The position numbers and the translations under genes were made by a program. 64,000 nucleotides of DNA, taken from contig JAHOYV010000024.1 in NCBI GenBank assembly GCA_019038745.1, positions 1-64,000 on the forward strand, in the 5' to 3' direction. Positions 555 through 3,746 of the stretch are shown here, piece by piece (position 1 is the first letter of the stretch; each line of letters begins with the position of its first letter). Below the pieces are notes generated by a model. It saw only the letters and a list, made by a program, of their open reading frames with translations, ran no database searches and was not told the DNA's origin. The DNA is from Gemmatimonadales bacterium (lineage in GTDB: Bacteria; Krumholzibacteriota; Krumholzibacteriia; LZORAL124-64-63).

Positions 555-1130
555 TTATTTATGAGCCTTTCGCTCCCGTGCAGTAACAGCATCAGCAGAA
601 TCCGGGTCCATTCCAAACGGATCGCCAAACGTATTTTCTCCTTCATTGGTCAAACTGTCGCCCTCACGGGGCTGTGCATCGCTCTGGCCATGAACGAGTG
701 AATTACCCGCCAATTCGCCAGTTACTTCATCTCCATCACCGAAAACCTTCGTCAGATCTTCAGAATCACCTGAAAGATTTCCATGAGGACCGGACACTCC
801 CTGGTTCTGGTGTTCTATGCGGTTGCTGAGACCGTTGCTAGGGTTGGTTGAACTCTTATCCAGGTCGTCGAATCCATCGCCGTCTTCATCGGTGAAGGCC
901 TTATCGATACCGTCGGAATCGTCGGATCCGTTAGTACCCTGGTACATGTTAGTGGTCTCGCTCCGTTGTATTGTATGAGTGCGCACACTGGCACCATTGC
1001 TACCGTAGTCTGGAAAATCATCCTCCACTATGGGTTTGGTCTGAGGAGCATCCTCACTTTGAGCCATGGCACCAACAGCCAGCAAACATACCAACAGTGC
1101 CATCATAATCGAAGTCATTAGGGTCTTCAT
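555..1130 (-). CDS. Secreted acidic protein, copy 1 of a duplicated family
   Basis: MKTLMTSIMMALLVCLLAVGAMAQSEDA signal peptide; AAGGAGGAG RBS; paralogous to 2000..2452 (shared GQ...QPREG[DE]xLxNxGxxxFGxP). Confidence 0.75.
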   Translation of the reverse strand: MKTLMTSIMMALLVCLLAVGAMAQSEDAPQTKPIVEDDFPDYGSNGASVRTHTIQRSETTNMYQGTNGSDDSDGIDKAFTDEDGDGFDDLDKSSTNPSNGLSNRIEHQNQGVSGPHGNLSGDSEDLTKVFGDGDEVTGELAGNSLVHGQSDAQPREGDSLTNEGENTFGDPFGMDPDSADAVTARERKAHK

Positions 1131-1513: not shown

Positions 1514-1931
1514 ATCGGGTGGGACGGGGGCCTCACGGCCCCGTCCCACCCACATCACCGTACATACGTTTCCGTATACGGCGGTTCCTAGCAAGTATCT
1601 TCCATATTCTCGCAATACCTTCCATCCCATAAGCACCCAGCCTTACCTTTTGACAGACCTCCCAGGGTAAGACGCGTAACCTTCATCCCATATACCCGCC
1701 GCATTTACTTCCACACCTTCCTGGATGGCTATTGGGCTTTGGATCTCATAGCCTCCTCGCCCAGATGGTGCTGCCTCATATGCGGTATCTGTTCGTCGGG
1801 CCGGGACTTTGCCTGCAGCTTCCTTCAGATTCCAGGTCGCCCCGGACACCCTTGTTGTTCTGCTAACGGTTCCCACCATCAGGGTCTGTAGATGACTTGC
1901 ATCTCCAAGAGCGTGCGCCTCGTGGGCACAC
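1514..1931 (-). mobile_element. ORF-less group IIC (bacterial class C) intron ribozyme
   Basis: Reverse complement begins GTGTGCCCACGAGGCGCACGC; contains AAGGGTGTCCGGGGCGACCTGGAATCTGAAGGAAGCTGCAGGCAAA and TTACCCTGGGAGGTCTG (domain I-like); domain V GAACCGCCGTATACGGAAACGTATGTACGGTG with the CGC triad; long domain VI stem ending CACCCGAT. About 418 nt, no RT ORF, directly downstream of a terminator. Confidence 0.88.
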
Positions 1932-1999: not shown

Positions 2000-2452
2000 C
2001 TACTTGATGCGGCCGGTGCGTTGTTGTTGGTCAGCTTCACCTTCATTATCCTCAAGCGGAGAACCAAAGTAATCGTCCCCGACATTTTCAAGTGCTTCGC
2101 CTTCACGGGGCTGTCCAGTATCTTGGCCAAGGCCCCTATTACTGCCAATCATCTCGCCTTCCACAACACTATCTTCTCCGAACGCCTTATCTAAATCGGA
2201 AGTAACGGGTACAACACCACTGGGAGGGCCGAATCGTTCCAAGTTGCGAAGAACAACGCCATCCTGAGTCCCAGTATTGTCGACGCCATCAAATTCGTCA
2301 GTTCTAGTCGTTGTAGTGTCGCCACCCGGAACAACATCAGGTTCACCTTGAGGGTCCTGAGCACTCTGGGCATTCTCACTCTGCGCATAAGCACCAACAG
2401 CCAACAAGCTGATCAACAGCGCCATCAAAATCGAATTCAATAAGGTCTTCAT
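2000..2452 (-). CDS. Secreted acidic protein, copy 2 of a duplicated family
   Basis: MKTLLNSILMALLISLLAVGAYAQSENAQ signal peptide, AAGGAGGAAC RBS, paralogous to 555..1130. Confidence 0.78.
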   Translation of the reverse strand: MKTLLNSILMALLISLLAVGAYAQSENAQSAQDPQGEPDVVPGGDTTTTRTDEFDGVDNTGTQDGVVLRNLERFGPPSGVVPVTSDLDKAFGEDSVVEGEMIGSNRGLGQDTGQPREGEALENVGDDYFGSPLEDNEGEADQQQRTGRIK

Positions 2453-2755
2453 GTCTTGTTCCTCCTTGGGAGGTTTTGGGTCACGTCCTCTATTATCCCC
2501 ACCGAGGAGACCCATTTGCAACTGGCGTTCCCGATCGAAAAATTATTCTTGCCCAGAGAAATTCTCGCCCTAACAGGGAACAATTTGGATCTAAAAGCAA
2601 TCCTTCGAAATAGCCGTTTTTCTGTCCTCGCAAACCTCTGCGAGAGAAGACCTACCCCTCTCGCAAATTCCTGCGAAGCGATTTTCACCCCTTCGGTCAT
2701 AATGCCGACAGTCGGGAAAAATACATTCCACTTTGCCACGATTGGCAGCGGTCGC
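2453..2755 (-). repeat. Leader region of copy 2, duplicated at 1131-1435
   Basis: Inverted repeats at 2627-2644 (ctcgcaaacctctgcgag) and 2661-2676 (tcgcaaattcctgcga) in the same order and spacing as copy 1. Confidence 0.8.
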
Positions 2756-2783
2756 GAGGTGAAGTCCCGCAAACCTGGCTTGA

Positions 2784-3746
2784 TTATTCAGCAGGACAGT
2801 TCATTAGCTCCGGCGGATAAGGATTCAAATAACTCAGGTCCGTCATATCATGCACCTGGTGCATCTCAAAGTAAGACCGCAGCAGGCCCACTGGCTCGGC
2901 CAGGGTGCACCCTCCCCCACGAAAATCCTCGATAACCTCAATCAAGCGTCGCTGCTCCTCGGACGATAGTTTCCCTCGCAGATGACTCGTGATGTCCTGC
3001 AGCGTGTCCATGTGTTGGCTCATGGTCGCCTTGGCGGATAGCGCCTTCATATATAGAGACAGGTATTGTTCGTGGAAGGCAGCGGGTCGAAAATCCCGGA
3101 GATCGGCGATAAGCCGGCATAGCTCATCGTAGTGCTGCGGGCTGTGCGCCAGCAGCAGATGTTTTTCACGATTATGGAAGTCCTCGATCGCCCCACTCTG
3201 CCAAACACCCGAGAAAACCTCTTTCACACGTTGATAGGCAAACACCCTTACCAGAAAATTCTCCCGCAACCCCGCGTCGGATAACCGTTCCTCATCCTCA
3301 ACTGGAACAAGCGGGTAGAAACGAACGAACGAAGCGGCGAAAAAGCCTCTGCCCAGGGGAAGGGTTTCACCGTTCTCCTGAATTACAGGCACTTTGTACA
3401 AACCGCAGCTGGGTGAATTCTTTTTGAACACAAAACCGCACAAGTCTTCACCGGCCAGCTCGCGGGATCGGTTATTAGACCAGTCGCCCATCTCCTGGGT
3501 CCAGTTTCGGCCCGAGTCCGGGGCGATCAGGCCCGGTGCGCCGGGATCGCCTGCCAACGTGATGGTCTCGCGTGGTGTGCCCATCCCTATCTCGGATTCC
3601 GGGCAAACCGGTATCAGTTCAAAAAAACCGCCAAGGGTATCCGTTATAAAATTATCTCGCCTGTGGCCGCCGTCGTAGCGGACTTCCTGGCCCAACAGAC
3701 AAGCGCTTACGCCGATTTGGATGTTCTTTCCTGTTGTCTCGCTCAT
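2784..3746 (-). CDS. DUF523 + DUF1722 (YbgA-like) protein
   Basis: MSETTGKNIQIGVSACLLGQEVRYDGGHRRD...CPESEIGMGTPRETI; C-terminal YLSLYMKALSAKATMSQHMDTLQDITSHLRGKLSS (DUF1722). Confidence 0.88.
   Translation of the reverse strand: MSETTGKNIQIGVSACLLGQEVRYDGGHRRDNFITDTLGGFFELIPVCPESEIGMGTPRETITLAGDPGAPGLIAPDSGRNWTQEMGDWSNNRSRELAGEDLCGFVFKKNSPSCGLYKVPVIQENGETLPLGRGFFAASFVRFYPLVPVEDEERLSDAGLRENFLVRVFAYQRVKEVFSGVWQSGAIEDFHNREKHLLLAHSPQHYDELCRLIADLRDFRPAAFHEQYLSLYMKALSAKATMSQHMDTLQDITSHLRGKLSSEEQRRLIEVIEDFRGGGCTLAEPVGLLRSYFEMHQVHDMTDLSYLNPYPPELMNCPAE

Follow-up and report, generated by a model that had tools for sequence, protein, structure and literature searches.

The block at positions 1514-1931 on the minus strand of the window, that is, of the whole 64,000-nt stretch of DNA analysed here, is a group IIC intron that directly adjoins the U-tract of an intrinsic terminator. 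In all likelihood it is a copy in decay, probably no longer able to splice, from a non-autonomous lineage of group IIC introns that lack a reverse transcriptase (RT). The host assembly is a Krumholzibacteriia MAG of 3.58 Mb in 112 contigs, 91% complete; the window makes up the first 64 kb of its contig C5. The parts of the element are given below; G017:C320 is a 650-nt ORF-less intron from G017, a genome of the same family.

1514-1931, minus: group IIC intron remnant, 418 nt, ORF-less (RF02001 and RF00029 matches; 5' and 3' termini as in relatives)
1932-1968, minus (stem 1968-1939): intrinsic terminator and U-tract TTTTGTT of gene 2000-2458(-), target site and 5' exon; the intron starts at the next base
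1882-1931, minus: first ~50 nt, of the type seen in RT-bearing introns of the family, probably a mosaic 5' end (pairwise alignments; without the two extra hairpins of G017:C320)
1671-1846, minus: domain I core (RF02001 positions 1-170, 135.4 bits)
1650-1670, minus: 5' strand of DII, a remnant without its partner strand (alignment with G017:C320)
1648-1650, minus: deletion junction, 192 nt absent relative to G017:C320 (alignment; J2/3-DIII motif and RF01998 absent)
1588-1648, minus: 3' part of an ORF-less-type DIV (alignment of five loci; 142.3 bits with R1, a covariance model of the lineage's 3' part that has the window sequence itself among its source sequences)
1555-1584, minus: DV, with CGC triad, closing pair C.A and bulge A-U instead of A-C (RF00029 alignment; bulge assigned by sequence reading)
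1516-1552, minus: DVI, a long perfect hairpin with no bulged branch point (folds of eight DVI sequences)

Infernal placed RF02001 (group-II-D1D4-3) on the minus strand at 1846-1671 over the full model, positions 1-170 (135.4 bits, E = 8.3e-28), and RF00029 (DV-DVI) at 1586-1514, also minus, with 41.4 bits, just over the gathering threshold of 40. The 5' end of the intron, GTGTGCCC, lies at 1931, immediately 3' of the terminator's TTTTTTGTT, and the 3' end at 1514 reads ...CCCACCCGAT, the same ending as in the relatives. Both the CGC triad of DV and the GAT 3' end, which conforms to AY, were read in the window sequence. Domain I, DV/DVI and the insertion right behind an intrinsic terminator all speak for descent from group IIC. 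The original prediction had given exactly these coordinates, which the two Infernal matches and the termini of the relatives bear out, and it had named the CGC triad, the long DVI ending in GAT, the start directly after the terminator U-tract and the class C identity with its targeting of terminators; all of these were recovered, and the Infernal check of the domain I/V core that it proposed found both parts (135.4 and 41.4 bits). Only its description of the terminator hairpin as perfect went too far: the hairpin at 1968-1939 is there, with 13 pairs, but is near-perfect and includes G-U pairing.

The window copy aligned with G017:C320 at 92% identity over nucleotides 23-282 and at 90% over 284-418. 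Between these segments a single 192-nt stretch of G017:C320 was absent from the window, comprising the 3' half of DII, J2/3, DIII and the 5' part of DIV. The motif of J2/3 and the start of DIII, AGAAGTCAGC, lies inside the missing stretch and was present in every relative long enough to show it; it was not found in the window intron. Rfam model RF01998, covering the DII-DIII region, matched all four complete-core relatives scanned with 59.5-66.9 bits (G017:C320 66.9, the other three 59.5-64.1), and gave no match in the window at gathering, nor in L001 at E values up to 1. Since the model hits all four complete relatives scanned and not the window, the earlier remark that the element lacks the usual class C domain III sequence was correct. 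A reading of the odd region as a new kind of DIII was dropped, as it is the 3' part of DIV brought beside DII by the deletion. In the catalytic triple helix, J2/3 comes together with the triad and bulge of DV (PMC3669008), and loss of J2/3 should abolish catalysis. The window copy also differed in DVI, where folding paired the A at -7 (position 1520) with the U at 1548, a feature that the original prediction had not mentioned; in each of the seven complete ORF-less relatives folded, this A stood in a bulge. Hydrolytic splicing without branching is possible for group IIC ribozymes (PMC7161350), so the paired branch A alone would not kill the intron. In DV, the closing pair C.A was flagged as non-standard in the Rfam alignment, and the A-U bulge is common to the window and G017:C320 and so is not specific to the window. 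Of the features expected in an active ribozyme, the window copy lacks an intact DII-J2/3-DIII stretch and a bulged branch A in DVI, and judged from its sequence the copy has presumably lost splicing.

No RT ORF lies within the 418-nt intron, and a search with RVT_1 gave no match anywhere in the 91%-complete host assembly, so that the absence of a reverse transcriptase, predicted for the intron, extended to the assembled genome. RVT_1 was found in 10 of the 14 genomes searched, the four lacking it being the host, G001, G017 and G036. Repeats such as RT-bearing introns often break assemblies, and given the 91% completeness an RT could still be present in the host cell. A search of the genome for further ORF-less copies, proposed with the original prediction, succeeded in part: no complete copy of the intron was present in the host assembly, but two fragments carrying only the 3' end (DIV-3'/DV/DVI) were found on other contigs.

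C29:12776-12916 (L006:3774-3911, minus in L006): 3' fragment immediately behind the stop codon of a cytochrome gene (multihaem type)
C32:18728-18863 (L007:3732-3865): 3' fragment supplying the last codons and stop of a sensor kinase frame

Both look like 5'-truncated or eroded copies. Model R1, run against 80 genomes of the class, gave five matches at E < 1e-15, all of them in the host (G000) and G017 and all source sequences of the model. No empty site for the window locus was obtained from G001, a genome of the same genus, which has no homologous flank. Gene 2000-2458(-), which owns the terminator, encodes a small protein whose N-terminus is signal-like and for which Pfam gave no match; across the intron from it lies a similar gene, 555-1130(-). 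The two minus-strand genes also have alike upstream stretches (1140-1460 for 555-1130, 2461-2780 for 2000-2458) and alike terminator hairpins; apparently they are a tandem duplication with the intron between them.

The 5' end of the window copy has a different affinity from the rest. Its first ~50 nt, including GGCGCACGCTCTTGGAG.TGCAAGTC, matched the RT-bearing intron of G025, as well as an intron 5' end that lies at one edge of contig G017:C249; they did not match G017:C320, which bears two extra hairpins behind the first stem. These hairpins occur in the rhizobial and gammaproteobacterial relatives as well, so the state seen in the window is probably derived. The copy is thus probably a mosaic, judging by those ~50 nt, with a 5' end of the RT-bearing type and the remainder from the ORF-less lineage; two introns of these kinds could have recombined, or template switching between them could have produced it. 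The G017 assembly is 76% complete and without an RT; the 5' end of RT-bearing type at the edge of its contig C249 suggests that this genome holds both RT-bearing and ORF-less introns.

Complete relatives of the G017 intron were found on proteobacterial plasmids. Its full length could be aligned with plasmid-borne ORF-less introns of Sinorhizobium fredii NGR234 (77.9%) and Rhizobium ruizarguesonis (76.8%). Alignments in two pieces were obtained with introns of Pseudomonas putida, P. fulva, Aeromonas caviae, A. hydrophila, P. alcaligenes and Citrobacter freundii. The six plasmid introns extracted were complete, ORF-less, unannotated and 651-684 nt long, each one behind a terminator and U-tract.

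L113:1501-2153: S. fredii intron, plasmid
L114:2501-3151: R. ruizarguesonis intron, plasmid
L109:3932-4613: A. caviae intron, IncP plasmid
L111:3932-4613: P. alcaligenes intron, plasmid
L112:3936-4614: P. putida intron, plasmid
L108:3934-4617: C. freundii intron, plasmid

The A. caviae (IncP) and P. alcaligenes copies differed at 1 of 682 nt and lie behind different terminators with unrelated flanks; such near-identical copies at different sites show recent movement. With at least 80% of the query covered, the joined flanks stood without interruption in 114 plasmid records for the A. caviae site and in 942 for the C. freundii site, the best record being 100% identical over all 240 nt. These exact empty sites fix the intron ends at both sites and show that no target site was duplicated there. 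Two partial copies were also seen. Plasmid pRL23b4 of R. leguminosarum (L115 ~2381-3046) carries an ORF-less intron that, like the R. ruizarguesonis one, lies close to curli genes; the 5' part is absent, and an IS630 transposase gene stands beside it. A P. veronii plasmid (L120:3501-4110) carries a gamma-type ORF-less intron that ends in DIV just before DV and is 3'-truncated.

The window intron is homologous to this lineage in domain I and in the 3' part of the non-coding DIV (92% and 90% to G017:C320). In the plasmid copies DIV is 148-185 nt long, non-coding and predicted to form a long branched helix. Changes on both sides of DIV pairs were seen in 12 of 46 pairs in the rhizobial/Krumholzibacteriia group and in 9 of 55 in the gamma group, counts that depend on the alignment and come from four sequences per group, two of them close. 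The motif GGARGTAG-hairpin-CTGGGYGCTTA stands at the same place in DIV of both groups, and pairwise shuffle z values between the two DIV groups were just 1.4 to 5.6; a common origin of DIV in the rhizobial/Krumholzibacteriia and gammaproteobacterial groups is only suggested by the sequences. In a tree of D1-DIII the ORF-less introns did not form one clade, so ORF loss may have been repeated. Among GTDB genomes the strict DIV pattern matched G017 records alone; viral contigs had no match to it or to the second motif pattern, and E. coli genomes had none to the ORF-less DIV queries. A match in the E. coli S30 plasmid (L121:1434-2147) was rejected as a member of the lineage, since an RT C-terminal remnant precedes DV, which marks it as an independent ORF loss. 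Like this group IIC intron, the one at L012:1417-2204 (G080) has lost its RT by internal deletion, with remnants left before DV, and is an independent ORF loss too.

Other readings of the window copy were weighed against decay. It is very unlikely that the block is a functional minimal IIC intron without DII and DIII, spliced and mobilised in trans by the RT of another element. Domain I and DV still score well, the 92% identity to G017:C320 suggests a fairly recent arrival, and a related RT can drive ORF-less introns in T. elongatus (PMC2882425); however, J2/3 and DIII are gone, the branch A is paired, the host assembly has no RT match, and the 3' model found no second copy with the same deletion in the 80 class genomes, the other strong matches being the G017 copies and the two fragments. 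The original prediction had offered either a trans-mobilised minimal intron or a decayed one. For the window copy the 192-nt deletion and the paired branch A favour decay, whereas the trans-mobilised alternative does not suit this copy but fits its source lineage, with recently moved complete copies and mobilisation in trans as the presumed route.

An error of assembly, with a complete ORF-less intron as the real copy, could have produced the 192-nt gap, as the assembly is a MAG, intron copies are repetitive and contig C5 begins 1.5 kb away from the element. We regard this as improbable to a high degree, because the junction lies within one contig, both flanks have diverged from every other copy seen, the assembly holds no complete copy, and the change at the branch site is independent of the gap. 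Least credible is retention of the remnant in a host role, in which DVI might, for instance, serve as an additional 3'-end hairpin: the DVI hairpin is very stable (-35.7 kcal/mol) and the C29 and C32 fragments likewise lie at gene ends, but no U-tract follows DVI, a strong terminator is already present upstream, and no counterpart of the locus was found in G001, the second genome of the genus.

On the preferred reading, a decayed member of an RT-less lineage, the complete members are 650-684 nt long, have no ORF, carry a structured non-coding DIV and insert behind intrinsic terminators. By analogy with the ORF-less introns of T. elongatus (PMC2882425), they most likely move in trans, as RNPs with the class C RT of an RT-bearing intron elsewhere in the cell. 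The window copy sits behind the terminator of gene 2000-2458(-), has lost 192 nt, has its branch A sealed in a perfect helix and would now be silent and drifting; lying downstream of the terminator, the remnant should cost the host little. More tentatively, these introns may form a cross-phylum non-autonomous IIC family with a conserved structured non-coding DIV in the position of the RT gene, a family that borrows the RTs of other introns to spread behind terminators, broad-host-range plasmids included, in the manner of SINEs and LINEs, with the window copy as its fossil. The window locus, a decaying mobile element, is itself of little weight, and it led to the recently moved IIC introns on plasmids. 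If the plasmid copies use the class C RT of their host, trans mobilisation and the role of the non-coding DIV are directly testable.

That class C introns lie behind terminators is well established (PMC8919778), and ORF-less bacterial introns have been described as rare and as almost always occurring together with a related RT (PMC4424553); the window copy is a decayed case of an intron type already known. The lineage on plasmids may deserve a name as a variant, although individual copies have possibly been catalogued already. The group IIC introns of O. iheyensis, B.h.I1 and Ta.it.I1 resemble the window copy in domain I and the DV CGC triad and share with it a short 5'/3' consensus and insertion behind an intrinsic terminator; in contrast to typical group IIC introns, the window copy has no RT ORF, J2/3, DIII or bulged A in DVI. 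RT-bearing IIC introns of Krumholzibacteriia (G034:C515, G025:C361, G037:C324) have a window-like 5' end and terminator sites, and those aligned over domain I were 72-76% identical to the window there, but their RT C-terminus abuts DV with no non-coding DIV. C.te.I1 of Clostridium tetani (PMC4424553) is likewise ORF-less in a genome without a related RT; it self-splices robustly, whereas the window copy lacks active-site parts and its host genome is incomplete. The ORF-less TeI3-series introns of T. elongatus (PMC2882425) have also multiplied without an RT of their own, with a related RT able to act in trans, but they belong to a different class and keep remnants of the ORF ends, whereas the lineage of the window copy belongs to class C and has a non-coding DIV, and the window copy itself carries an internal deletion.
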